DNA from: Candidatus Cloacimonadota bacterium
GTDB lineage: Bacteria > Cloacimonadota > Cloacimonadia > Cloacimonadales > JAFGVF01
DNA length: 33,902 nt
Direction of reading: 5' to 3'
Assembly: GCA_016838885.1 (NCBI GenBank)
Contig: JAEKNW010000303.1
Location: 1 to 33,902, forward strand
The position numbers were made by a program, and so were the translations under genes. Below the pieces are notes generated by a model. The model did not search any database, was not told where the DNA came from, and saw nothing but the letters and a program-made list of their open reading frames with translations. This document shows positions 18,353-33,712 of this stretch, one piece after another (position 1 is the first letter of the stretch; every line of letters begins with the position of its first letter).

Positions 18353-21300
18353 TTATTTTAGGACTTCGTTAGAAGCTTTGACTTTGTAGAAACTACGTTG
18401 ATATTCTTCTATTCCTGTCCAAGTAGGGTCTGTAGTGGTGGCGATTGGAGAACCCCAATCAGTTGCATAAGGATCTGAACTGCGATAAATCTTGTAAGAT
18501 ATTGCATTTGGTACTGCAGTCCATGTTAAAGAAACCAACCCTTCCGAGATTACTATATTCAGGTTTTGAGGAGCAGATAAACTCATCATCTCAGTGGTGA
18601 ATGAGACTTGGTTACCATAGGTTATTCCTGCTTGGTTTATGGCGAATGCCCTTACATAATAGTTTGTATTAGGGTTCAATTCTTCCATCCATAAAGAGTA
18701 ATCCCAGACAAGAGGACTGATTGTATCAATATAGTCGTCAATTGTAGGTAAAGGATTTTCGCTCCAGCAAATACCTGCTTGAGTGATACTACTATTTCCA
18801 TCAGCGGAGATATTTCCACCAACTCTGGCAGAAGTAGGACCTATATCGCTTACAAGCTGGGTAGTAATCGAAGGTAGTGCTATGCCTGATCCACTAAGGG
18901 CAATATATTCAGGATTAGCCAGACTTGTTTCAAGGCTAATATTCCCTGAATAAGTAGTTAGATCAATAGGATGGAAGTAAACATTGATAATAGTTTCAGC
19001 AATGTTTCCATCTTGAGGCTCTAGCATAATTTGGTTTGTTTGTCGGCTTGTGGTTAGTCGAGCATCTAATTCCAGACTAAATCCTTCCGGAGCAGTGATT
19101 AAGACGTTATCAAGCAAATAAGCAGCAGAGATTGTAAAGCTCTGAGCAAGAGATATTGAATTGATAAGAACAGGACCAAAATCAGGTAAGGCAGTATGTG
19201 AGATAGTTAGCTCAGGTCCTATGGTATTAAATGATACCACATCTCCCCAAGCTCTACCTCTTGGATTGTCTGCATAGGCTAGATAAAAATACTGACTTGC
19301 AGGTTCAAGTTCTTGGACTAAAGTTGAGAAATCATTCCCTGTAGAATCAGAACTTATCTGAATACCTTCAGTTAAAGGATCAGGATCGGTCCCAAAGAAA
19401 AATCCTTTTCCCAATATGGGAAGATCCCCATCAGAAATAATTTGAGCATTTAGTTGGCTTGTATATTGTGTTACATTAGAGGCATTCTGAGTAATTACCG
19501 AAGCATTTTCTCCCCCCATAATGATATCATCTATATACCAACCACTGATGTTATGACTATTTCCATCAAAGATAAATGCTAAACGTAGGTTATCAGCTCC
19601 AACTCCATGACTCTCAAAAGTTAATTGATAGTTAAGAGTTTGACTAACGATATCAGCATCAATATTTAACCATTCTTCGATTAGATAGCTATTTGTTCCA
19701 ACCATAGAGAAAAGTTTGAGGTCAAAGCTTTGGTCAATATACTCAACTTTATGTTTAAAGGTAAGCTGGATTTCTTGGAGCCCGGAAGTGTCAAACATAG
19801 GTGAGAGCAGAGTAACTTCACCATCATTATGAGGATCGAAACTAAAATACAGTTCAGGGCTGACAGCTCCGGCTTGACTGCTTCCATTAACAGTCCAATT
19901 TGGGTGGCTAGTCTCCCAACCAGATGGTAAGACACCTTCATCAGCTAAACTGAATCCTTCATAATAAGGGATATTTTCGGTTATAAGCTGGTATCCGAAA
20001 CCAGAAACTTGAATCACTTGTCCATCTCTGCTCCTTGTCTTACTTTGATTTAGTAAAGAAGTGCTTCTGGCAGGTATGTTACCGGCTTGAATAGTAATCA
20101 TAGCCTGCTTACTTCCTACACTTTCAGGAGTGAAATTAATTCCGATCTGAGTAGTCTGACCACTACTTAACTCTACAGGATTACTAAGATTCAACAACTC
20201 GAAATTAGTTTGATTTAAACCTGTAAGTAAAATATCTTGTGGATCAAGTGAAAGAATTCCTCCACCCACATTAGAAATTTCGAAGAATTGAGTGTTAGAA
20301 CTAGTTGCCACTTCTACCCTTCCAAAATCATAAGAGACAGGATTTACAGCAATAAGAGGTAACTCGCGATTCCAAATACTTACATCGTCTATAGCAAAAC
20401 CTTCATCAGTATTCAGGTTGTTTGCCACAAACCTAAAACGCAATCTAACTTGAGAATTATAGGCAATACTGAGCAAGGATGTGCTGAATTTAGTCCAGCC
20501 ATTACTATTACCGTTCCATCTAGGGACTTGTAGAGGACCCATTTGACTTGTAACGTTATATAGACCAGTATCACCTTCAATATATTGCCAACTATTGCCT
20601 CCGTCAATACTAGCCTCAAGAATCATACTGTCGTTATCAACTTCACTCTTATGGTTAATCCACACACTAAACATAGGGTCATCTAGTTCGCTTAGATCAA
20701 TTAACGGTGAACGAAGCCATATATTTGAGTTATTCATATAGTTTTGGCTAAGATTTGTCATCCAACTTAAGTTACCACTATGAGCAGAGTTTAGACTACT
20801 TTGAGCCGGACTACCGTGTTGCCAAATATTCAGGCCGGTGATACTTCCACCTTTGAATCCTCCATCTCCACTCTCGAAATCTTCAAAATATGGGAAGGAG
20901 GTTATAACTAAGCCATCTACAACAGTGAAGCTCCAAATCGGGCAGTTTTCTGCTGTATCCCTAAGTGTGGAAACTTTGTCATTTACCTGCTTGGTTAGCT
21001 TTTTAGAAGGACCTTCTATATTCCTAAACTCATCACTATTGGCAGATGGAATAACCTGCCAGTAATATGTTTCATTATTAACAAGATCAAGCCAAGGCAA
21101 TATGCTATGTGTTCCAACTCCTCCCCAAACTATTCTGCTTTCATAGCTTGTCATAGTTGGATCTGTACCTAACTTGATATGGTAAAGTAGCGGATCCGTA
21201 AATCCTTCCTGAGAAGTATATGACCAGCCCAGATGGTTTTCCACGGGGACATCAATACTGCCATTAGTAGGATAAGGAGTATGAGCTGTCGCAGGTGGTA

Positions 21301-24300
21301 AAATAGTGTTCCAAATCCTGATATCATCAAGAGCTATGCCTTCATCAACATAGCTTGCTCCATAATCATTATCAGAATAGAATCTGAAACGAAGCCAAAC
21401 TTGAGGTTGGTGAGCCAGTGCTGATAAACTAGTAGTGAATTGAGTCCAGACCCCCTCTTGATTAGGTATTCTTCCACTCCAATTTGGATGACTTGGATTT
21501 GTGTGGCTCATATTGTTGTAGAATCCACTATCACCTTGAACTTGTTGCCAAAGGCTTTCATCAAGGGAGTATTCTAAAATCATCCCATCATAAGATGCTT
21601 CAGTCCAAATGTTTAGCATTAAGGAGATGTTTGGGTCATTGAGATTGCTAAAATCATACATTGGAGATTGAAGCCAAGTATTGGCATTATTTTCATAATC
21701 TTGGCTAAGATAGGTCATCCAAGAATTTGATCCGTAAGGAGTATTTATTACTTCTTGAGATGGCCAGCCCAATTCCCAATGATCATTACCTGTAATGGCG
21801 CCGCTTGTCCAACCTCCGGAACCATTTTCGAAATCCTCATAATATGGATAAATGGTTATAGGAGGTGAAGGCAAGGTACTGAAAGACCAAATTGGACTAT
21901 TAAAAGCATCGTTCCTTCTTGCATTGCTTGTTTTATGATGATTTATTTCGTGTGGATTTGTTCCTAATAGTGCTCTTGATTCTTCAAAGGTACTAGGAAT
22001 CACCTGCCAGAAGTATGTGCTTCCATATTGCAGACTAATAGGACTATCTATTGTGTAAAGACCTGGTCCACCAGAGATATAAACTTGAGAATAAGATATC
22101 ATTGAGGAAGAGTTTCCAATTCTAAGGGTATAACCTGTTGGATCTGGGTGTCCATACTGAGAAGTATAAGCCCATGATAATTGAGTATTCAACTGGACAT
22201 CAACCGCTCCCTCATAAGGGGCAGGAGAATCAGCATATCCAGGGCTTTCCCCAGGAGATTTAAGCAAGACATCATCTATCATCCAGGAATTCAGATGGTT
22301 TGAATTCCCAGAGAAAACCCAAGCTAGTTGCAAATTAGATGCACCTGCACCTTGAGCCCATGTGATAGACTGTCTTACAGTTTCTGCCTCAATATGTCCG
22401 TTTGGATTAACCCACTCTCTTAAGAGGTATTCGTTTAAACCAACAATTGAGATTAATTTCAAGCTATAAGCCCCATATTGATGATCAAGTTTATGCCTAA
22501 AAGATAAAGTTAGTTCACTAAATTCACTTGTATCTAAAGCAGGAGTTTTCAGATATAAATCACCTGTTGATTCAGGAGTCCAGAAGAATTGCATTACAGG
22601 AGCTGAGACTCCGATATTAGTATATATCTCTGCACCCCAATTCGCAACATCTCTTTGCCAGCCTGCCGGAATAGTGCCATAGGACAAGCCTGTGAAATCC
22701 TCTGACCATTCAAAGGTTGGGATATAATCAGCATCCCAAATCTCAACATCTTCAATAGCAATACCTTGATATGACAAAGAGTGGTCAGAAGCAAAACGGA
22801 AACGGAGATAGGCTTGAGCTTGATTTGCTAATTCTGGTATGGCAGTAGTGTATTGAGACCAAGTGCCTATATTTCCAGACCACTTTGGGCTTGCCAAAGG
22901 TCCAGAATCACTATTATTATTATAAAAACCTGGATCACCGGTAACTTTTGCCCAAGTGCTTCCATTAGTGGAGTATTCCAAAATCATGCCATCATAGTTG
23001 TTCTCAGTCCTAAGGTTCAGCCAGACTGAAAAAGTGGGAGCAGTAACTTGACTAAAATCCAAAGAGGGAGAACGTAGCCAGCTATTAGTATTGTGTGGAT
23101 AGTTTTGATCTAGATGGGTAGCCCATACTTTTTCATCGCTGTATGGTAAGAATTGGTCTGGACTTGGGTCTCCCCATTCCCAGATATTAGATCCTGTTAT
23201 TAGTCCCCCAAACCAACCACCGGGACCAATTTCAAAATCTTGATAGTAAGGGAATGAGTTGACCAGAGTTTCGCTAACGCTGAAGCTCCAGATTGGACAG
23301 TTTGTTGCAGGGCCACGTGTAAGACTATTGTTTTCTAGAGTTAACTCACCCCTTCTTGCTTGTAACTCAGTCGTAGGAATCACTTGCCAATAGTAGGTAT
23401 TCCCAGCACTGAGTGCTATCATTGGAGTTATTGTATAAGTTCCAGGTCCACCAGAGACATAGGTCTCACTGTATGTATTCATACTAGGGTCACTTCCCAT
23501 CTTGACAATGAAACCATTAGGGTTAGCAAAGTTTTGATGAGCAGTGTAAGTCCATCTAATATTCGTTGCAGGTTCAACACCAGTTTCATTGTTACCAGGC
23601 ACCGGTGAATGAGCCCAATAAGGATTATTACTGTAGAAAGTCCAAATGATATTGTCATCTGAATCGTTTTCATAAGCTGTTCCTGAAAATTCTCCTGTGG
23701 CAGTTCTGAAGATTAGATGTCCTTCTCCGGGAGCGTGATAAACGTTGTAATCTCCACTCCAAGTGTTAGCTGGGAAGACAGCTTCTTCTACCACCAAGCC
23801 CTGTGTGTTATATTTTTTTAGTAAGGTACCACCACTAGCTCCATTTCTAAAAGTGCAATAACTAAAGGGATAATTTGTATCTACGATGCTACCCAGAGCG
23901 AGGTTAATCCCCTCTGCATTCATTTTTTCAAATACACAGTATTGAGCACTTAGCTGAGAACCGCTTGTTGCCTGGAAACTGTAAAAGCCATTATCGGCTG
24001 TGATTGTTACAGGTTCAGAAGGTGTACCCACTGCATATAACTGGCCACTGGATCCAACTATCAGGTTGGCATTGTTGTTTATTTTCAAGGTGGAAGCAGG
24101 GCTTAGAATAAGCTTACGGAAGGCGATATTGAGGTTACCTTTCACCCCTATAGTTGCTCCTTCAGGTAACTCAGCATGATATCCTACTGCTTTGGCAATA
24201 GTTAAGTTATGAAAATTATCACTGTTTATTACGGAGTTGTAGTTTCCCGTATCAATGAATTGCACTGTTCCGTTACCTTCTTCAAAAGCACTGCTACCTG

Positions 24301-27300
24301 CTTGGTTATTCCAGTTACGGCCAACATGCATAAAATCTCCACTATTAGGCATTGAAAGCCTACCACCTTCGATTTTGACATCACGAAGAACGCGGATCAA
24401 GTTGTTCATTGGGGCCAATACTCCACCCTGGATAATCAGATCCCGCTCTACCTGAACCTGGCTTGATAGGTATGTGGCATAAGCAAGACCAGGCTTATTA
24501 ATAACTAAGTCATTAAAACTATTGGTGCTGTGCATTTGGATGTCTCCTGCCCGAGCTCCGGTTAATTCCACTCTACCTGTACCACCATCAAAAGTATTAG
24601 CATTCATAGCTTTAAATGCCCAACCTACTTTAATAGTTCCACCCTCTAATAAAATGTTATCTGAAGCGATCTGCAATCCATTGTGATGTACTTCCAGACA
24701 AGCCGTTTCATAGATAGCAACGTAACCTGCTAAACTATAATATGTTCCGACATAGGGGCGACTAAGTCTTAAGCAACCATTGGTATCTATTTCCATTTCT
24801 GTACCAAGTTGATGGTCAAAATTACCTAAACAACCCAAAGAAGAATTGCCTCCAATATAGGTGTAACCTAAACTGTTAACAACATTACCATTAACTTCCA
24901 AGCTAGTGTTGTTCACCAATTTCAAAGTAGAACCATTGTTCATATTGCCATTAACGTTCATATTGATAGAATCCAGTGTTACTTCACTTTGCCCCATAAT
25001 TGTCATATTTCCTAAAACTGTTAGAATCTGACTACCCACAATCTGAAAATCTGTCCAATCAACTTTATCAATTATCAGGTTTCCGAAACGGGTCCCAACA
25101 GCATCATTTTGAATCCTTGAATAATTAATACTTCCATCAATATCAGAACTTTCACCTGGAGCTGAACTGATCCCAAAAAACCGTAGATTAGCATTTGGGC
25201 CCATCTGGAACACTGAGGTTGATGCCAGATCTAACCCGTTTTGCATCTCTATTGTACCAACATAGAGCCTTGAACTTCCATCATTTTTCCAATAAAGGGT
25301 TCTCTTGACTATAAACTTAGATGAAGCTTGACTTAGAACCAGTTTCCCGATAATCTCAGCTTCTCCTTCAACATTAAAAGTTGCATCTCCTATTAGTAGT
25401 TCACCATTTTGATGCAATAGATTACCGCTTATGCTACTGTTAGTAGTAATAAAGACTCTGCTGTTATAAGTTGTCCTTTCTTCGTCATTGTCGACGTAAA
25501 GGTCATTGCCAGATCGGTCTTGCTTATTGATGAGAAGATTATTAATAGAACTTTGAGGGTGAACTGAAAAATTTGTATCTGCTGTACCCGAAAGCTCAAT
25601 AACACCAGATCCTTGGTGTACTCCCGGTCTTAAACACCGAAAGTTTCCCGCTGTACGAATAAGGCCACCATCAATTGCTAATTCCAAAGTGTTTGGTGAA
25701 TTAGGTATATTGATACCACTAGTCCCGAAATCTAGAACACCACCGGTCATTGTCAATCGCGCATTTCCATCTTGAGCCCAGTAACTAGTTGAGTGAGTGC
25801 CCCATACCCGCATTTCACCTCCATGAATCGTAACATCTGCATTCATATTAACTGAACCAGATGTTTGGATGATAATAATCTCTCCATTGTTAATCACGTA
25901 TTTTCCGGTAATGCTTGATGAAAATAGATCCATGATCTGCACTGTTCCCCCATCAAGATGCAAAGCCCCTGAATACCATTGATAATTATCAATAATCGTA
26001 GTGGAATTCTCTACAAAATGAACATCATTTTGAATGGTAAGGATATTAAAAAAATCTCCATAACAATACTGAGCTTCTGTTCCATTGAAGATTACATTGC
26101 TACTTCCTTTAACAAACATGCCATTGTTAGTCCAATCTCCTTTAATATAAATGCTATTGGCTCCCGGACTTAAAGAACCGGAACTAATTAAGATATCGCC
26201 ATTTATAGTAAGGTCTCTAGATAGAGTAATAACACCGGTGGTAGCAATTTCTACATTATGGAAATAGTCTCCGGCATTGTTAGGGAAGATACCAAAACCT
26301 CCAACAAGTTTTAAGCTTCCTTTTTGCATTTGAAATATCCCGTTATTTACTACATTTGTTACAGCTAACACTCCATCAGTTTCCGAATATAGCGTGGATC
26401 CAGCATGAATTTCTAAGCTCCCTAATACATTAATCTCACCTGTTGCAAGACCATGTAAAGTAACCGACCCCCCTGAGTAGTTACTAATGACTAGATTAAC
26501 AACGTTGAAATCGGTTGAACCATTAAAAATAATGGAATGATGGTAACTTCCAAGTTTTAGCTCCGAGTTCTGAGCAAACATAACCTGGGAACCTGGCGAA
26601 GATGACCAATCATTCTTGCAATTAAACCTTGAATCATCAGTTGCCATTAATGTGGCATTTGGACTTATATTTACTGTTCCATTACAGGTAACTTGTGACC
26701 TCGCGTTAGGGGAGTTTATTACCATATTTCCTTCGATATGAATATCTTCAGATACTGATAAAACACCACTACTTATAGCAAGGGTAGCACCAGCTTCAAT
26801 GTAAAGTGTTTTGGCATTTGCTAAAACTCCTCCACTTATAAGTGGCTGATGAAGTGCAGAAGCTGAAATTGAAACATCATAATGCTCAGTTGGCGCAATC
26901 GGACTTGTCCAGTTTGCAGCATCAAACCAATCAGTAGAAACTGCACCAGTCCAAGACACTTGGTCCTTTATCTCTACCTTGTAGCTATGTAATCCCCAAA
27001 CAGTGGGATTTACAACCAAAGCATACCAGCCAGCTGTGCTAATGTTACAAGCAAAGGACTTTGGTCCGTAAGATCTTTCTCTACTCCATGCTTTAGCCTC
27101 GTTAAAGGCATAATATCCTTGCCCCTCAGCTTCAAAAAAAGCAAAATTCAATGATGATGAACCAAAATCAAAATACCATGTGTTTTCACTTAAATAAACT
27201 TCATAGATATCAACGACTTTATTGGAGGGATGGGTTTTGTTGTATAAAGTCTCTGTCTGAATAATTTTTGGAGTAAAACCTTCTGCACTATAATCAGCAA

Positions 27301-29137
27301 ATACCCCATCTAAAATGCGAAATTTAAAACCCATATCCTGAGCAGGTGATTCTTGCCGATTAATTAGGATATAATTTGTTCTATCTTGGTATTGACTTTG
27401 TTTAACCATGTTAGTGTAGTTAATATCATCATAAAGTTCCATATTCAATTGACCTAGATTGCTCTTCAAGCCTAGAACTTGCCAATTTGCTTCCGGATCA
27501 TATTCTAATCCGGCAAAGCTAACATCTCTTTCAATTATCTGACTGTAAGTCTGAGTCCAAGGAAGACTTGGACCATTGTCTGTTATGATAAAATTACCAC
27601 AACTACCATCCTCTGCTAATAATTCGTTAGTGCTACTGTCTATGAGGCGGAGCCTGACCCGACACATTTCGGAAGTACTGCCTGTTGATGAAACTATATC
27701 CGGTACCATCCAATTGAATGTTCCATTATTTGTAGCATTTGAAGTAACTACTTCCCAAGTTTCAGGTAAATGAGAACCTCCTTCAATATGATACCATATC
27801 TCTAAATGGGTATTAGGCTGACTGTGGGGTGTCCAGATAATTTCATAAGGGTAACCTGAAACCAACTCTTCAGGTGGATTCCATCTTCCCCATGAAATAC
27901 TACCCTGAGGTTGCAATAATCTTAAGTAAGCAGGATTTGGGACTTGAACTTGGGGCCAATATACACCACACAGTTGGGACCTATGTAATAATCGCATGGT
28001 GGGCCAGTTTGAATCGTAAGCTAACCAGGAATCAAAGCCCTGCCTATAGCCTACAATAGTAACAGAGTGCGAGTTATCATCGATATTTGCCAATCCCGGA
28101 ATACCAGCATCAATTATATCCTTCAATCTGTTAAAGAGAGATTCAGTGCTATGGTGATGAGCCCACATTGAGCCGGTATTACAACTATAACCCCATACCT
28201 CTGCTGCTTCATCAATACCATCAGCAATATTTCCAATAAAGGTGCCTCCTGTTTCATTATAGTTAGTCCCCATCTCGTGAGCTAAAATCCGGACAAGGTT
28301 CGTAGTATAAGGACTTACATAATCAATAACAGGATCATATCTTGTAAACTGATAAGCACTCATCTTTCCTGCGCCAGCATAATTATCCCACCAAGCTAAA
28401 ATCATGGCAGCTGCTGTAGGACTACAACCATAGGTCCAAGGTATAAAGGGCATTTTATCTAAGCCTGGAATTAATACGTCGTTTACTGAGCGATCCGGAA
28501 TAGTATCCCACACTAAATCCCATTCTTCATCAAACTCCTCTTTATCCCAAAAATAGACTCCATCATTAAGCTTTTTATGGAAATCAACTTCAGATAACTT
28601 CACTGGAAAAGGTACAGGGTTAATGTAGATATTTTCCTTGCCATTAGTAACCATAGTCCATATTTGAGATGTTCCTAGATAATAGGAACGCACAATCCTA
28701 AAGTCATCCTGAAAAAACTTTCTAGCTTCCTGTTCAATTACTTTTGCTTTCATAATGTTGGGAGATAGACTCTGGGAGGATTCGATAATCACCGGCATAT
28801 CGCGAGTGGCACCCATAATTATATAAGCATAATCATTAATCCCAAACCTAGCATTGCTACTAGTGTTTAAATCACTGCCCAATGAGTTTTTTAGGATTTC
28901 TAGATCTGGAAACTCCCCTTTAACTGAGAAATTGATTTCCCAAGCATTGATTTTGTTATCTAGTCCATAAAGAGCAATTGCTTCAGCCGGGTAGAGTGTT
29001 TCTTCCTTCCATATCGCTGAAGTGTGTTCCTTGGCAATCCTCATAATATCTTCCATGCTCACTGCACGATCTTGCCCTTGAGCAAATAGAAAACTACTCA
29101 ATATTAAAAATATAGTAATCATACTCACACTTTTCAT
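18353..29137 (-). CDS. giant secreted C39-like cysteine peptidase / beta-helix / adhesin-like protein
   Basis: 3594 residues with a signal peptide (cleavage near FLFA|QGQ, residue 19). Layout by eye: prodomain-like 25-225; C39-like peptidase about 228-400 with C238 (WTYGCSPTAAA), H357 (SHSVTIVGY) and D375/N377 (AYDSNW); an Ig-like part to about 520; a long glycine/valine-rich beta-helix-like region, about 730-1830. After that come three repeats of a fibronectin-like module (ending YYWQVIP or YFWQVIP) with a MAM/jelly-roll-like module (P-Y-x-x-DFE ... LRFRF ... IDDV), plus two cleaved-adhesin-like modules, an Ig-like DFG module near 2930-3020, and FN3 domains to the end. No FlgD-like tail. ATG overlaps the preceding small gene (ATGA). 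Likely surface-exposed or secreted; substrate unknown. Confidence 0.85.
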   Translation of the reverse strand: MKSVSMITIFLILSSFLFAQGQDRAVSMEDIMRIAKEHTSAIWKEETLYPAEAIALYGLDNKINAWEINFSVKGEFPDLEILKNSLGSDLNTSSNARFGINDYAYIIMGATRDMPVIIESSQSLSPNIMKAKVIEQEARKFFQDDFRIVRSYYLGTSQIWTMVTNGKENIYINPVPFPVKLSEVDFHKKLNDGVYFWDKEEFDEEWDLVWDTIPDRSVNDVLIPGLDKMPFIPWTYGCSPTAAAMILAWWDNYAGAGKMSAYQFTRYDPVIDYVSPYTTNLVRILAHEMGTNYNETGGTFIGNIADGIDEAAEVWGYSCNTGSMWAHHHSTESLFNRLKDIIDAGIPGLANIDDNSHSVTIVGYRQGFDSWLAYDSNWPTMRLLHRSQLCGVYWPQVQVPNPAYLRLLQPQGSISWGRWNPPEELVSGYPYEIIWTPHSQPNTHLEIWYHIEGGSHLPETWEVVTSNATNNGTFNWMVPDIVSSTGSTSEMCRVRLRLIDSSTNELLAEDGSCGNFIITDNGPSLPWTQTYSQIIERDVSFAGLEYDPEANWQVLGLKSNLGQLNMELYDDINYTNMVKQSQYQDRTNYILINRQESPAQDMGFKFRILDGVFADYSAEGFTPKIIQTETLYNKTHPSNKVVDIYEVYLSENTWYFDFGSSSLNFAFFEAEGQGYYAFNEAKAWSRERSYGPKSFACNISTAGWYALVVNPTVWGLHSYKVEIKDQVSWTGAVSTDWFDAANWTSPIAPTEHYDVSISASALHQPLISGGVLANAKTLYIEAGATLAISSGVLSVSEDIHIEGNMVINSPNARSQVTCNGTVNISPNATLMATDDSRFNCKNDWSSSPGSQVMFAQNSELKLGSYHHSIIFNGSTDFNVVNLVISNYSGGSVTLHGLATGEINVLGSLEIHAGSTLYSETDGVLAVTNVVNNGIFQMQKGSLKLVGGFGIFPNNAGDYFHNVEIATTGVITLSRDLTINGDILISSGSLSPGANSIYIKGDWTNNGMFVKGSSNVIFNGTEAQYCYGDFFNILTIQNDVHFVENSTTIIDNYQWYSGALHLDGGTVQIMDLFSSSITGKYVINNGEIIIIQTSGSVNMNADVTIHGGEMRVWGTHSTSYWAQDGNARLTMTGGVLDFGTSGINIPNSPNTLELAIDGGLIRTAGNFRCLRPGVHQGSGVIELSGTADTNFSVHPQSSINNLLINKQDRSGNDLYVDNDEERTTYNSRVFITTNSSISGNLLHQNGELLIGDATFNVEGEAEIIGKLVLSQASSKFIVKRTLYWKNDGSSRLYVGTIEMQNGLDLASTSVFQMGPNANLRFFGISSAPGESSDIDGSINYSRIQNDAVGTRFGNLIIDKVDWTDFQIVGSQILTVLGNMTIMGQSEVTLDSINMNVNGNMNNGSTLKLVNNTSLEVNGNVVNSLGYTYIGGNSSLGCLGNFDHQLGTEMEIDTNGCLRLSRPYVGTYYSLAGYVAIYETACLEVHHNGLQIASDNILLEGGTIKVGWAFKAMNANTFDGGTGRVELTGARAGDIQMHSTNSFNDLVINKPGLAYATYLSSQVQVERDLIIQGGVLAPMNNLIRVLRDVKIEGGRLSMPNSGDFMHVGRNWNNQAGSSAFEEGNGTVQFIDTGNYNSVINSDNFHNLTIAKAVGYHAELPEGATIGVKGNLNIAFRKLILSPASTLKINNNANLIVGSSGQLYAVGTPSEPVTITADNGFYSFQATSGSQLSAQYCVFEKMNAEGINLALGSIVDTNYPFSYCTFRNGASGGTLLKKYNTQGLVVEEAVFPANTWSGDYNVYHAPGEGHLIFRTATGEFSGTAYENDSDDNIIWTFYSNNPYWAHSPVPGNNETGVEPATNIRWTYTAHQNFANPNGFIVKMGSDPSMNTYSETYVSGGPGTYTITPMIALSAGNTYYWQVIPTTELQARRGELTLENNSLTRGPATNCPIWSFSVSETLVNSFPYYQDFEIGPGGWFGGLITGSNIWEWGDPSPDQFLPYSDEKVWATHLDQNYPHNTNSWLRSPSLDFSQVTAPTFSVWLNLRTENNYDGMILEYSTNGSTWAKVTGDPGFYNNNSDSGPLASPKWSGNIGTWSQYTTAIPELANQAQAYLRFRFASDHSLSYQGIAIEDVEIWDADYIPTFEWSEDFTGLSYGTIPAGWQRDVANWGAEIYTNIGVSAPVMQFFWTPESTGDLYLKTPALDTSEFSELTLSFRHKLDHQYGAYSLKLISIVGLNEYLLREWVNPNGHIEAETVRQSITWAQGAGASNLQLAWVFSGNSNHLNSWMIDDVLLKSPGESPGYADSPAPYEGAVDVQLNTQLSWAYTSQYGHPDPTGYTLRIGNSSSMISYSQVYISGGPGLYTIDSPISLQYGSTYFWQVIPSTFEESRALLGTNPHEINHHKTSNARRNDAFNSPIWSFSTLPSPPITIYPYYEDFENGSGGWTSGAITGNDHWELGWPSQEVINTPYGSNSWMTYLSQDYENNANTWLQSPMYDFSNLNDPNISLMLNIWTEASYDGMILEYSLDESLWQQVQGDSGFYNNMSHTNPSHPNWSGRIPNQEGVWTQFTTSLSALAHQPQVWLRFRFYSDNDYGASYVDEGIALDDIRIWNTILPPATAHTPYPTNGSIDVPVENHLGWSYTSQEGFTDPLLYHIKLGTDPTMTSYESRIVWGGVGTHSILPWLDLVNNETYYWQVIPSANSDEFRNIEGPSKKLTKQVNDKVSTLRDTAENCPIWSFTVVDGLVITSFPYFEDFESGDGGFKGGSITGLNIWQHGSPAQSSLNSAHSGNLSWMTNLSQNYMNNSNIWLRSPLIDLSELDDPMFSVWINHKSEVDNDSMILEASIDGGNSWQYIEGDTGLYNVTSQMGPLQVPRWNGNSNGWTKFSTSLLSIAYNSQVRLRFRFVANNLNTDEGFAIDDVSIWNRELPLIAVNPVSYDFGRVEVATSSNTQFFEISNVGGGILSLDPQDILLTGLNQTNFELLNLSNPVELSSGQTTQIGINFTPESVGSKQAMITIQAGNIPARSTSLLNQSKTRSRDGQVIQVSGFGYQLITENIPYYEGFSLADEGVLPSGWETSHPNWTVNGSSQAGAVSPELYFSFDPHNDGEVTLLSPMFDTSGLQEIQLTFKHKVEYIDQSFDLKLFSMVGTNSYLIEEWLNIDADIVSQTLNYQLTFESHGVGADNLRLAFIFDGNSHNISGWYIDDIIMGGENASVITQNASNVTQYTSQLNAQIISDGDLPILGKGFFFGTDPDPLTEGIQISSDSTGNDFSTLVQELEPASQYFYLAYADNPRGRAWGDVVSFNTIGPELTISHTALPDFGPVLINSISLAQSFTISAAYLLDNVLITAPEGFSLELDARLTTSRQTNQIMLEPQDGNIAETIINVYFHPIDLTTYSGNISLETSLANPEYIALSGSGIALPSITTQLVSDIGPTSARVGGNISADGNSSITQAGICWSENPLPTIDDYIDTISPLVWDYSLWMEELNPNTNYYVRAFAINQAGITYGNQVSFTTEMMSLSAPQNLNIVISEGLVSLTWTAVPNAISYKIYRSSDPYATDWGSPIATTTDPTWTGIEEYQRSFYKVKASNEVLK

Positions 29138-29361
29138 AATTTCTCCTCATTTAAATATTTGTTAATTTGTGGATATCTATTAAATAGATACTTGATTTTG
29201 TTATAATTAGTTGCTGATGATATACTTTGATTAGCTAGTTTTATTAGAAGAGATTCCCGGCTTACAGATAAATAAAAGCTTATAATATTAATCCTCGTAT
29301 TATTGGTTTGATATTTTCTTGTTGCTTCCCTGCTGGTTTCAGTTTTATTTTGCTCTATCAT
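29134..29361 (-). CDS. 75-residue coupled protein of unknown function
   Basis: Not recognised. It is polar, Asn/Ser/Lys-rich, without a signal peptide or membrane helix. GAGG lies before its ATG, the start overlaps the pseudo-receiver gene by 17 bases, and the stop overlaps the giant gene's ATG (ATGA). The giant gene's Shine-Dalgarno GAGGAG is formed by its last codons (Glu-Glu). This nested arrangement supports real translation. It may be a leader cistron that couples translation of the giant gene, or a partner of the pseudo-receiver. It could also be the split-off output part of a once longer response regulator. Confidence 0.55.
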   Translation of the reverse strand: MIEQNKTETSREATRKYQTNNTRINIISFYLSVSRESLLIKLANQSISSATNYNKIKYLFNRYPQINKYLNEEKL

Positions 29362-29716
29362 TTAAAGCCTCGCCACTAGATTTAAAATTGCAACACAGTC
29401 TTAGATCCGTTAAACTGAAAGGTCTTCTTAATGTTTGAAAATCTCCTGAACGTATTTTTTCAATTGCTGAACATAAACTGTTTTCCATGCTCACTATCAC
29501 CTTAATCTGAGGCCAATAGTGATTGATATAAGAAATCTGAGCAAAGTCATCCATCCCGTCAGCGTTATAGAGCACGAGGTCTATCCCAGACTTATCCAAA
29601 ATACGGCTTAGTTCAAGACGGTTATACACGATTTCTACTAGGAAGCTCTGAGCTATAAAATACTCGATCAGTTCAGCTTCTTCCAAAGGGTTAGGTTTTA
29701 CTATTAATATTCTCAT
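29345..29716 (-). CDS. pseudo-receiver (response-regulator-like) domain protein
   Basis: 123 residues with the fold pattern of a CheY-like receiver: MRILIV at the start, GIDLVLYNADGM at beta-3, IKVIVSMEN at beta-4 and LRRPFSLTDL at beta-5. All four key phosphorylation positions are changed. The acidic pair after beta-1 is K7-P8, the phospho-acceptor Asp is N51, the Thr/Ser switch is S76 (kept), and the invariant Lys is R98 in RPF. It should therefore not be phosphorylated in the usual way and may act by binding. No output domain is fused. GAGGTG precedes the ATG. It heads the three-gene unit with the 75-residue protein and the giant protein. Confidence 0.75.
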   Translation of the reverse strand: MRILIVKPNPLEEAELIEYFIAQSFLVEIVYNRLELSRILDKSGIDLVLYNADGMDDFAQISYINHYWPQIKVIVSMENSLCSAIEKIRSGDFQTLRRPFSLTDLRLCCNFKSSGEALNDRAK

Positions 29717-29739
29717 TTTACACCTCAGAACACATATAT

Positions 29740-29757
29740 ATCAATTTTCATTCCAAA
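29740..29757 (-). promoter_or_regulatory. weak sigma54-like promoter (candidate)
   Basis: On the minus strand TTTGGAATGAAAATTGAT follows the -24/-12 pattern TTGG-CACG-N4-TTGC. The -24 GG and the TTG of the -12 box are kept, but the -12 GC reads GA, a serious mismatch. A start about 12 bases on would give a short leader before GAGGTG and ATG 29716. The neighbouring gene encodes a sigma54 activator, which raises the prior. Still a weak call. Confidence 0.3.
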
Positions 29758-29820: not shown

Positions 29821-29923
29821 TATCCGTTTCCGGATAGTGGTTTTCTTATAAGTAAGCATATCCATTGATATAAGGGTGGTTTGAGCTATCTATCCGTTTT
29901 CGGGTACTATCCGTTATCGTAGA
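29821..29923. promoter_or_regulatory. three palindromic TATCCG-N4-CGGATA-type sites, candidate upstream activating sites
   Basis: Site 1 at 29821-29836 is a perfect palindrome, TATCCG TTTC CGGATA. Site 2 at 29891-29906 is TATCCG TTTT CGGGTA, one mismatch in the right half. Site 3 at 29908-29923 is TATCCG TTAT CGTAGA, right half degenerate. All lie in the 232-bp gap between the sigma54 activator gene and the pseudo-receiver gene, about 70-170 bases upstream of the candidate -24/-12 element. That is where NtrC-type activators usually bind. The activator's Fis-type HTH is the likely reader. Confidence 0.6.
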
Positions 29924-29948: not shown

Positions 29949-31310
29949 CTATAGTTTCTTTAATCTCCTATCGAGGGCTTGCCATGTAATATTGAGCAGT
30001 TTAGCAGCTTTTAATTTGTTATTGTTAGTTTTTTTCATAGCTTTTTTTATTGTTCTATTTTCGACCTCTCTCAAATCATAGATCTCATCACAATCGGAGT
30101 TTATTATTGACTCATTGCAAAAAAGATCAGACCGAAAATGTTGCAAACATAGATGCTTGTTATTACATAGAATAATTGCTCTTTCCATCATATTTTTTAA
30201 CTCACGTACGTTTCCGGGATAGTGGTAGGCCATTAGTCTTGCTAGTGCTGAGTTTTCAATCCCAACAATATTTTTCCCTATTTTATGATTAAAGAAATCG
30301 AGATAGTGGCGTATTAATTCAGGAATATCTTGAGTTCTTTCGCGAAGTGGAGGTATATAGATTTGATATGTATTGAGTCGGTGATAAAGATCTGTTCTAA
30401 AACTTCCAGAGCTAACCATTTCTTCGATGGAGCGGTTTGTAGCAGTGATAATTCTAACATCCACTGTTTTGTCAACATTCGCTCCAATTCTACGAACCTT
30501 ACCATCTTCAGTGATACGTAGGAGTTTAGCCTGCATGAGAGCATTCATATCTCCAATTTCATCTAAGAAGAGAGTTCCTTTATGTGCAGTTTCAAACCAG
30601 CCCGGTTTTCCATTAATAGCACCTGTAAAAGCACCTTTTTCAAAACCAAAGAATTCGCTTTCAAATAGATTATCTGGTATAGCTGCACAATTTACCGCAT
30701 TAAAGTAATACTTGTTTCTACTGCTTAAATGATGAATGCTTCGAGCAACAAGCTCTTTTCCTGTGCCGCTTTCCCCATAAATCATGACTGGTGTATCAGA
30801 GCTTTGAGCAATTGTTTTTATATCATGTAAGATTTTCTGGCTTTGTGGGCTATGTCCAATAAATTCAAGACCCAATTGTTGCCTAAGTTCTTTACTCACT
30901 CTTTCATAACTATTTTTAATGCTAGTAACTTGGCGATTTAAATACACGAATCTTGAGCTTCTTTGAATAGCAATAAGAACCTCTTTCATGTGAATAGGCT
31001 TGTTAAAAAAGTCAGCCGCCCCTAATCGCATGGCCTTGATAGCTGTCTCCATATCTCCTTGTCCAGTAATAATTAAAACTTCTATGTCAGGAAATTTCTC
31101 TTTAATAGCTTCCAAAACCTTTAAGCCATGCCTACCAGGAAGATTTAAATCAACAATCGCAATATCAATCTGGTGTTTATCAAGCACTGGTAATGCCTCA
31201 TTATATGAACCTGCTTCATAAACCTTAAATGCATTATCTTCTAAGTAGTCTCGTAATTCTTCTCGAATACGAGGCTCATCGTCCAAGATTAAGATACTCA
31301 GTTCATACAT
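29949..31310 (-). CDS. NtrC-family sigma54-dependent response regulator
   Basis: 453 residues in three domains. Receiver 1-120 has the acidic D10/D11, phospho-acceptor D54, T82 and K104, so it is intact. The AAA+ sigma54-interaction domain (about 150-380) has Walker A GESGTGKE (179-186), the sigma54-contact loop GAFTGA (226-231) and Walker B GTLFLDEIGD (245-254). The C-terminal Fis-type helix-turn-helix is at about 412-453. Phosphorylation by the adjacent kinase should allow it to open sigma54 promoters. The likely nearby target is the pseudo-receiver/giant unit. The gene starts two bases after the kinase stop, and its AAGGAG site lies within the kinase's last codons. Confidence 0.95.
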   Translation of the reverse strand: MYELSILILDDEPRIREELRDYLEDNAFKVYEAGSYNEALPVLDKHQIDIAIVDLNLPGRHGLKVLEAIKEKFPDIEVLIITGQGDMETAIKAMRLGAADFFNKPIHMKEVLIAIQRSSRFVYLNRQVTSIKNSYERVSKELRQQLGLEFIGHSPQSQKILHDIKTIAQSSDTPVMIYGESGTGKELVARSIHHLSSRNKYYFNAVNCAAIPDNLFESEFFGFEKGAFTGAINGKPGWFETAHKGTLFLDEIGDMNALMQAKLLRITEDGKVRRIGANVDKTVDVRIITATNRSIEEMVSSGSFRTDLYHRLNTYQIYIPPLRERTQDIPELIRHYLDFFNHKIGKNIVGIENSALARLMAYHYPGNVRELKNMMERAIILCNNKHLCLQHFRSDLFCNESIINSDCDEIYDLREVENRTIKKAMKKTNNNKLKAAKLLNITWQALDRRLKKL

Positions 31311-31312
31311 AT

Positions 31313-33652
31313 TTAACTCCTTATTAAGGGGATAGTTATCTCAAAAGTACTTCCCTCGTTTGGTGTGCTGGTAACACTCAGCGTTCCTTCCATATCTACC
31401 ACAATGCTATAGCTGATGGCAAGTCCAAGACCGGTTCCTTTGTCTGGATTTTTTGTTGTAAAGAAGGGATCGAATATCTTTCCGATTGTTTCATCAGAAA
31501 TCCCCATACCATAATCAATAACTGCGATAGAAACCTGTTTGTTAATAATTTTAACAACCACTTCAATGCTGGGAGATTCTACATCACCTATTTTTTGGAT
31601 TCTATCTAGGGTAGTATCTTTGGCATTGCTTAACAGATTTATTATTACCTGTTCAAGCTTTACCCTGTTGCCTAACACGATTGGTTTTCCACTCGAAAAA
31701 GTAGTTTTTAGACTAATATTGCATTTTTTTAGAACTGGTTCGAAGATACTTATAGCTTCATTTATGACTCCATATATATCGATTTGTTCTAAATCATCAT
31801 CTGTTTGGAATCTGGAAAACACCCGAACATGCTCAATGATTTTCCTGATTCGGTCAACATCTGTTTGCATACTATCGTTTTTTCTTCCAAGGTAACTTGA
31901 ATCAAGTTTATTTAGCTCTGTTTTGTTTTTAATGTTATCAAGACTCATAGATATAGCAGAAAGTGGTTGGTTGATTTCGTGGGCAATACCAGCAGCAAGA
32001 ACTCCCAAAGATTCCAATTTGGATTTTCTATTTACAAGTAACTGTTGCTGTTTGAATTTATCCATTTCTTCAGCAATCCGTTCTTCCAACTTTGAGTTTA
32101 GATCCTCCAATTCAGCACTCAATTTTTTGCTTTTATCGCTTTCTCGTTTTTTTTGTCGGTAAAGTACAATCATAGCTATAGTAAAGAATGACCCAACAAA
32201 GACAATCAAGATGAAAAGAAGTCTTTGTTTGATAAGTTTTTTCATTTCCGCTTCTCTTTGTTCACTTGTAGTACGTAGATTTTTAATCTCTTCAATTCTC
32301 TCTTTATTGTCAAGACGGTCCATCATTTCGGCAATAGCTTTTAGGCTTTTGTCTTCATGAAGTTCTTGATCGAGTTCAAAATACTTCATCAATGCCCCAT
32401 AAGCTTGTTGGAAATCACCCATTTCTGCTTGGATTTTGCTAAGTTGCAGGTAACTATGAAGCATTAGGAGTTTCTTATTTAGTTCTTTCCCGATTTCTAA
32501 CGAATACTCTGTATGCTTTAAAGCAGTTTCCCAATCTTGTATTAAGAAGTGGACTTCCCCTATGTTTTTTTCAGTTATACCTAAACCCTCTAGATCCTTT
32601 AGCTCTTGCTTGATAATTTTCGATTCATTATAGTAAGAAACTGCTTTAGTATAGTCCGCCATATTCTGATATACATTTCCTATATTATTGAGAGTTTTAG
32701 AAACTTCTTGCTTAAGTCCTTGCTTTCGATAGTAATTCAAAACTGACTGGTGGAATTCCAAAGATTTTGAGTATTCTCCTAAGGCATTGTAGAGTACTCC
32801 AAGATTTCCATCAACAATAGTGATGCTAGCAGGATCAGAAGTCTTAACAAATAATTCTCTAGCATTAAGGTAGTAGTGTTTAGCTCGTTCATATTGATTT
32901 ATTCTATAAAACAAGTTACCAATATTGAGAGAAGCCACTGCTAGTTCACTATCTGATCCTATTTCTGTCTTAATCTCCAAGGATTTAATGAATACTTCCA
33001 GGGCTGGAAGAATCTTTCCTAATTTTACATAGGTATTACCCATGTTGTTATAGTTGGCTGCAGTGAGTTTAGGGTTATCAGTTTTCTGTAAGAGATTAGC
33101 AGCAGTTTGGTATTGTAGAAGGGCTTGTTGATAATCTTGTTTTAGCCAATAGATTTGTCCCAAGCTAATCATTGTAGAGATTTCATCATCGTGAAAGCTC
33201 AGTCTATTCCTGTATTGTAGGGCTTGTAAAAGGTAATCTTCTCCTTGACCCAATTCACCCAATTGAAGAAAGCTTTGACCAATATTATTGTAGATATCGC
33301 CAATTAATTTAATATTTTGAGTTTCAAGAGCATATTGAAGTGCTTCTTGGTATGATTGTAGAGATTGCGAGTAGTTTTTTCCATTGTAATAATAATTCCC
33401 TTTTAGACGTATAGCGTCTGCAATTTCAAAATTATTATTGTGCTTCTTTGCTGATTCAAAAGCAAGTTCAGCATTTAACAAGGCGCTTTCTCTATCATTT
33501 TTCATTAATTCTCTAGAAATTTGATTATGAATACGCGCTTTTTCTTCACTTGGAGTATTTTTAAGCACCACTTGTAAGCTATCAACAAGCCCCAATAGAT
33601 TAGAACTCAACGAAATAAAGAGATAAATCATGAAAATCTTTCTAATATCCAT
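31313..33652 (-). CDS. TPR-repeat sensor histidine kinase
   Basis: 779 residues from ATG 33652, preferred to the GTG three bases upstream because GGAG then has a five-base spacer. A hydrophobic N-terminus (signal or anchor, about 5-21), then about nine to ten tetratricopeptide repeats (roughly 40-435) that would lie outside the cytoplasm. A membrane helix at about 478-498 and a coiled coil to 545 follow. Next the H box GIAHEINQPL with His558, the N box (NLLSNAKD, N676), G1 (DYGMGIS), F (FDPFFTTK) and G2 (GTGLGLAIS). All catalytic parts are intact. The TPR part suggests sensing through protein or peptide contact. Operon partner of the sigma54 activator. Confidence 0.93.
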   Translation of the reverse strand: MDIRKIFMIYLFISLSSNLLGLVDSLQVVLKNTPSEEKARIHNQISRELMKNDRESALLNAELAFESAKKHNNNFEIADAIRLKGNYYYNGKNYSQSLQSYQEALQYALETQNIKLIGDIYNNIGQSFLQLGELGQGEDYLLQALQYRNRLSFHDDEISTMISLGQIYWLKQDYQQALLQYQTAANLLQKTDNPKLTAANYNNMGNTYVKLGKILPALEVFIKSLEIKTEIGSDSELAVASLNIGNLFYRINQYERAKHYYLNARELFVKTSDPASITIVDGNLGVLYNALGEYSKSLEFHQSVLNYYRKQGLKQEVSKTLNNIGNVYQNMADYTKAVSYYNESKIIKQELKDLEGLGITEKNIGEVHFLIQDWETALKHTEYSLEIGKELNKKLLMLHSYLQLSKIQAEMGDFQQAYGALMKYFELDQELHEDKSLKAIAEMMDRLDNKERIEEIKNLRTTSEQREAEMKKLIKQRLLFILIVFVGSFFTIAMIVLYRQKKRESDKSKKLSAELEDLNSKLEERIAEEMDKFKQQQLLVNRKSKLESLGVLAAGIAHEINQPLSAISMSLDNIKNKTELNKLDSSYLGRKNDSMQTDVDRIRKIIEHVRVFSRFQTDDDLEQIDIYGVINEAISIFEPVLKKCNISLKTTFSSGKPIVLGNRVKLEQVIINLLSNAKDTTLDRIQKIGDVESPSIEVVVKIINKQVSIAVIDYGMGISDETIGKIFDPFFTTKNPDKGTGLGLAISYSIVVDMEGTLSVTSTPNEGSTFEITIPLIRS

Positions 33653-33712
33653 CACAACTCCAGCTTGAATGAGAATAAAACAGAGTTTATATTATTAAAT
33701 AACTCTTATCAC

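Follow-up and report, generated by a model that had tools for sequence, protein, structure and literature searches.

What is the role of three short palindromes that lie between the gene for a sigma-54-dependent regulator and the gene that follows it? This question is raised by a locus of a Candidatus Cloacimonadota bacterium, contained in a window (the whole stretch of DNA that was analysed) of 33,902 nucleotides. The sites most probably constitute an upstream activator sequence (enhancer) of a sigma-54 promoter, with the adjacent NtrC-family regulator as the predicted binder, and would be dedicated to one operon. The preliminary description had regarded them as the neighboring NtrC-family regulator's enhancer sites for a sigma-54 promoter, and this reading is supported in kind. 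It is based on the sites themselves and on how nearly unique they are in the genome, on the order of the genes, on a promoter-like element and its recurrence together with dyads in related cassettes, on an intact regulator and on the presence of rpoN; counted against it are the weakness of the promoter, which is the weakest of the set compared, the absence of the exact motif from every relative and the distance of the large downstream gene, 207 bases beyond the small one.

Palindromes and promoter-like element at the locus

All four genes of the locus are encoded on the minus strand, in the order kinase, regulator, 232-base gap, 123-aa gene and 3594-aa gene. Domain scans identify a TPR histidine kinase (31313–33655), the presumed partner of the regulator, and an NtrC-family sigma-54 response regulator (29949–31310; C-terminus ...ITWQALDRRLKKL), the presumed binder, which consists of a receiver with an intact Asp54, a sigma-54 AAA+ domain (PF00158, 2e-64), a lid and an HTH_8 domain (PF02954, 1.4e-09). 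The genome contains a single rpoN (one PF04552 match, 4.4e-50). The first target gene (29345–29716) encodes a stand-alone receiver-like protein that is devoid of the acidic pair, the phospho-acceptor Asp and the Lys, and the second likely target (18353–29137) encodes a protein that begins, as judged by eye, with a signal-like hydrophobic stretch and contains a C39-like peptidase domain. MAM-like and choice-of-anchor-D-like stretches, partly below curated cut-offs, are also seen in the latter. The spacer between the two target genes (29138–29344) is 207 bases long; of the 14 other cassettes in which the corresponding spacer was measured (L220 included, L215 left out), 10 have one of at most 26 bases, and L206 and L212 have one longer than that of this locus.

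The three sites share a 6-4-6 geometry (arms of 6, loop of 4) and have no assigned strand. The promoter-proximal site 1 (29821–29836; TATCCGTTTCCGGATA) is a perfect palindrome, TATCCG-TTTC-CGGATA, whereas site 2 (29891–29906; TATCCGTTTTCGGGTA) and site 3 (29908–29923; TATCCGTTATCGTAGA), which is one base from site 2, deviate from TATCCG-N4-CGGATA by one and two mismatches, respectively. Start-to-start spacings are 70 and then 17 bases, and the minus-strand string AACGGATA is common to all three. In sites 2 and 3, the half-site CGGATA (minus strand) is intact and the other half is partly lost; these two sites may be named either decayed palindromes or half-site direct repeats. The positions, the shared TATCCG and half-site spacing, the 17-base interval and the account of one perfect 16-bp palindrome with two decayed copies, all given in the preliminary description, are thus confirmed.

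A loose form of the pattern with three mismatches allowed matches 10 times in the whole window against 7.79 expected, which is not significant alone. Unlike this loose pattern, the cluster of tight copies is significant: one 8-mer occurs three times in the 232-bp gap in 12 of 2000 dinucleotide shuffles, and jointly with a palindrome with 6-bp arms in 6 of 2000, while such a palindrome alone turns up often (911 of 2000). Across the 3.34 Mb of the genome, TATCCGTTTTCGGATA, a 16-mer, has two matches with at most one mismatch, both in this gap, and its sole two-mismatch match sits within an ORF elsewhere. The 11-mer TATCCGTTWYC, a pattern derived from the three copies themselves, is found on both strands at seven places genome-wide (reversed control pattern, 19), three in this gap and the remaining four within other ORFs. 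The motif thus belongs to one place and is not a scattered repeat, nor, as far as these searches see, a box common to many promoters. Random scattering, which had been named as an outcome adverse to the enhancer reading, is therefore not what the genome-wide search returned.

A -24/-12-like element, TGGAATGAAAATTGAT (29740–29755, minus strand), begins 39 bases upstream of the 123-aa gene. The GG is kept, and GA replaces GC at -12 (TTGA for TTGC at -12, TGGAAT for TGGCAC at -24). By a weighting of the -24/-12 consensus (maximum 22.5), it scores 18.0, a value that 3 of 300 simulated sequences attain and the lowest of the set. The element would place the transcription start near 29729, and the centers of sites 1, 2 and 3 would then lie at about -100, -170 and -187, within the range of roughly 80–200 bases upstream that had been expected for such activators. 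The location claimed for the sites, between a sigma-54 activator and its likely target, likewise holds: an NtrC-type gene lies upstream, and the next gene is preceded by this element.

We infer a mechanism of the following type. The TPR kinase would phosphorylate the adjacent regulator, which would bind the palindromes as a dimer via its HTH_8 domain and assemble into an active AAA+ ring at the strong site and the weak pair. DNA looping would then allow the ring to remodel sigma-54 polymerase waiting at TGGAATGAAAATTGAT, so that the small receiver-like gene might be switched on, and the 3594-aa gene might be co-transcribed by read-through.

Related cassettes, their promoters and their dyads

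A search of 98 genomes sampled evenly across the order, using an eight-member alignment of the small family, gives at least 15 strong matches (E ≤5e-17) in frames of 108–212 aa among the matches listed, the gene of this locus included; weaker matches are mostly in longer frames. The 15 consist of the eight alignment members and seven new ones (the gene of this locus, L203–L214, L215 and L216), so the small family is present in at least 14 other cassettes of the same order. The related cassettes repeat the layout of this locus, with dyads of the same geometry and a -24/-12 element between the sigma-54 regulator and a small-family gene. A regulator ORF lies beside 11 of the 15 small genes, that of this locus included; L210 and L214, which have none, are near a contig end, and none was found in L204 (about 6 kb upstream searched) or L216 (about 2.9 kb). 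The 16 regulators compared are 41–51% identical to that of this locus. In six named genomes, the small family has no strong match in a short frame (best 5.3e-6), and in two genomes of the same family the regulator has no close counterpart (best E 2.5e-82). The gene behind the small gene varies; most such genes have a signal-like hydrophobic start (by eye) and their sequences differ, and in L215 a receiver protein is encoded there.

The promoter element recurs with the small gene. Elements of the 14 relatives score 19.0–21.5 and begin 31–62 bases upstream of the small gene (counted in L208 and L214 from the in-frame ATG used in the family alignment). Among 126 ORFs tested in all, with controls that included regulator regions of the genome under study, an element scoring at least 18 is present near the start of 14 of 14 small-family genes versus 4 of 112 other ORFs, namely the gene after the sigma-54 regulator in L217, L218 and L220 and one ORF of L274; at a threshold of 19.5, there are 13 matches, every one a small-family gene. 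The L215 small gene is missing among the 126 because it was displaced by a longer ORF on the opposite strand; read separately, it has an element of 19.0, 52 bases before the likely ATG. As 8 of the 15 small genes were known before the promoter test, a cleaner test is provided by the seven found later (L205 and L211–L216), all of which have the element. L209 and L213 share an identical block, TTAACAAGCGTTTAGC, which closely precedes the -24/-12 element at about 46–65 bases upstream of the small gene, in gaps that are only 57% identical overall; this block may be another protein site.

Dyads were sought in 14 relatives' gaps (L203–L214, L216 and L220) as matches with 5 of 6 pairs and a CG-N4-CG core. 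Thirteen are found against 0.44 expected, although this is not a clean independent test, as the CG core was fixed after gaps of relatives had been viewed. At least one dyad is present in 10 of the 14 gaps, or in 10 of 13 when only small-family cassettes are counted (without L220). The preliminary description had considered absence of the motif from the same gap of relatives to be adverse to its reading, and the outcome is divided: TATCCG and CGGATA occur together in no relative's gap, whereas dyads of the same geometry recur, and the 16 regulators compared have other recognition helices. A dyad of the tested form was not found in the gaps of L206, L210, L216 and L220; L206 contains the repeats TTCTCGTT...TTGAGAATATT, and L210 repeats AAAATCGGCG. 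The L215 gap, left out of the scan because of a wrong mechanical start and examined separately, also has no dyad with 5 of 6 pairs and the CG-N4-CG core.

The dyad count overstates independence, since L204/L205, L207/L211 and L209/L213 are related pairs. These pairs inform on site conservation. In L204/L205 (79% identical gaps), the arms of both dyads are kept and the central bases are changed, and in L209/L213, 12 and 11 of 14 site bases are kept. In L207/L211 (79%), one site is whole; another keeps 11 of 16 bases and the promoter string 12 of 16, which is no better than background. The dyad form is found in none of the gaps of five regulators of the order that have no small gene (L217–L219, L221 and L222), of which L217 and L218 have -24/-12 matches of at least 18 and, by eye, the strings CCGAAATCGG and the similar CCAAAATCGG. 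It is likewise found in none of the regions behind regulators of eight named genomes (L094–L097, L099, L121, L122 and L146; up to 450 bases downstream scanned, only about 130 for L094), where L096 and L097 have -24/-12 matches of 19.0.

The arms of the dyads change with the recognition helix of the adjacent regulator, and therefore this regulator, rather than a shared factor, is indicated as the binder. An ACG-N4-CGTTC site accompanies all six regulators with RTSLNR or RTGLNR (L207, L208, L209, L211, L212 and L213), which form one group in a quick tree and hence represent few independent cases. The helix TWQALDRR of this locus occurs with TATCCG-N4-CGGATA and the L205 helix TRQALDRR with CCCG-N4-CGGG, both sites containing CCG-N4-CGG. 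A strict rule by which a helix Asp or Asn would select C or A of the half-site was rejected: most cassettes fit it, but L203 has an LDR helix with TCG arms. Forty other regulator ends gave 36 readable frames; in 14 of these, the 700 bases downstream contain a -24/-12 match that scores 18 or more, and the dyads of these 14 yielded no site code. Eight of the 14 best matches (L244, L251, L256, L260, L263, L267, L272 and L273) begin 167–177 bases after the regulator stop, a narrow range although the regulators differ.

These comparisons bear on three other explanations. Binding of a different regulator, either an activator or a repressor, upstream of a promoter of sigma-70 type is improbable. A TTGATA-N18-TAAAAT match (10 of 12) does overlap the -24/-12 place, where the sigma-54 element is imperfect, but sigma-70-like matches number 5 versus 4.0 expected in the 900 bases scanned, in the relatives, the corresponding place before the small gene holds a better -24/-12 element, and a foreign binder is not suggested by site arms that differ with the adjacent regulator's helix.

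Formation of an RNA hairpin or terminator that ends the kinase–regulator transcript is very unlikely. Site 1 scored terminator-like on the plus strand, and on the minus strand gives a six-pair stem with a GAAA loop; however, both flanking genes lie on the minus strand, and in that orientation site 1 is not followed by a T-run. The gap does not fold unusually well (z -1.43; 13 of 200 shuffles do as well), and in copies 2 and 3 pairing is lost while one half-site is kept. Chance, or a repeat element without a regulatory role, has a slighter probability still: the ease with which shuffled gaps produce a palindrome with 6-bp arms would suit it, but not the rarity of one 8-mer in three copies, the lack of genome-wide scattering or the recurrence of dyads in related cassettes.

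Comparison with known sigma-54 systems

The NtrC–glnA system has an NtrC-type enhancer with a sigma-54 promoter. LuxO, as far as the consulted portion of the source describes, uses a pair of cooperative sites that lie about 100 bp upstream of a sigma-54 site (PMC11407668). Like such NtrC/LuxO-type enhancers in these partial accounts, the locus has paired sites about 100–190 bases upstream of a -24/-12 element, an HTH_8 regulator and a partner kinase; the differences are that the letters of the sites are others, that one adjacent operon is served as far as found, and that binding is predicted. In the PrsK–PrsR system, according to the excerpted source, transcription of a PEP-CTERM gene for which an enhancer is predicted depends on RpoN (PMC9850573). 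The PrsR model (TIGR02915) is the best-scoring NCBIfam model for the regulator of this locus, and its 368.3 bits are below the curated cut-off of 502.6, which leaves the regulator outside PrsR. A receiver-like first gene is found here and none in that excerpt on PrsK–PrsR; PEP-CTERM signals were looked for here by family scans only. For the sigma-54 regulons of Desulfovibrio vulgaris, binding motifs upstream of promoters were assigned to each activator by comparative genomics, and in the part of that work considered here, resemblance between motifs does not in every case track that of the DNA-binding domain (PMC4641369), whereas in the small sample of the present cassettes, the arms follow the helix type.

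The palindromes and the mechanism are thus of a known, textbook kind, and the less ordinary part is a cassette with a pocket-less receiver as its first gene. The palindromes matter in that they would tie one regulator to one operon in a probably uncultured lineage, and the cassettes, which pair regulator helices with site arms, could serve the study of site choice by HTH_8 domains.

The receiver-like first gene

The 123-aa protein matches no Pfam family at E 0.001 and scores 16.9 bits against the receiver model PF00072 (cut-off 30.2); five of eight small-family members match PF00072 at E up to 1. Profile comparison of the small family with the regulators' alignment gives 98.4% probability over the receiver part. 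A single-sequence AlphaFold model of the protein (pLDDT 41) is too poor for use.

The acidic pair, the phospho-Asp and the Lys are present in each of the 16 regulators whose N-terminus is complete. In contrast to these, the 123-aa protein has Lys-Pro for the acidic pair, Asn at the phospho-Asp place and Arg for Lys; the alignment is gapped at the phospho-Asp place, and residues there were read in the profile-comparison register. Among 14 aligned members (L215 left out), both Asp of the acidic pair are present in none and one is present in L206, and the Lys is present in none. At the phospho-Asp place, twelve other members have Phe, Arg, Tyr, Glu, Ser or Gln, and L216 has Asp, which L215 seemingly also keeps. 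The acceptor Asp is accordingly absent in 13 of 14 members, and the pocket is incomplete in 14 of 14. L220, first picked with the small family, keeps a full pocket and was dropped, though it was left in the dyad count.

Comparison of the cassettes thus exposes a small receiver-like family whose members lack the usual phosphorylation pocket and whose genes, wherever examined, come first after a sigma-54-type promoter. The preliminary description had not foreseen such a protein as the product of the first target gene. Aspartate-less receiver (ALR) domains, as characterized in the available section of their description, are receivers without the phospho-acceptor Asp (PMC4395418), and the 123-aa protein is like them in this respect; it differs from the ALR domains covered there in that it is stand-alone, is also without the acidic pair and Lys, and has a gene that comes first after a sigma-54-type promoter next to a kinase–regulator pair. 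The position of pocket-less receivers first behind such promoters suggests a possible feedback on two-component systems. Speculatively, the enhancer of the regulator might first direct synthesis of a receiver copy without normal phosphorylation, which might contact the regulator receiver or the kinase and thereby act as a feedback limit or lock on the secreted protein, with the cargo exchanged between cassettes and the regulatory head kept. Such a device is doubtful, and slightly more so because L216 and apparently L215 keep the Asp. Titles and the beginnings of abstracts in a limited literature collection describe no such cassette. In some receivers, Glu at the phospho-Asp place can mimic phosphorylated Asp, and the small proteins of L209, L213 and L214 have Glu at this place in the profile-comparison register.
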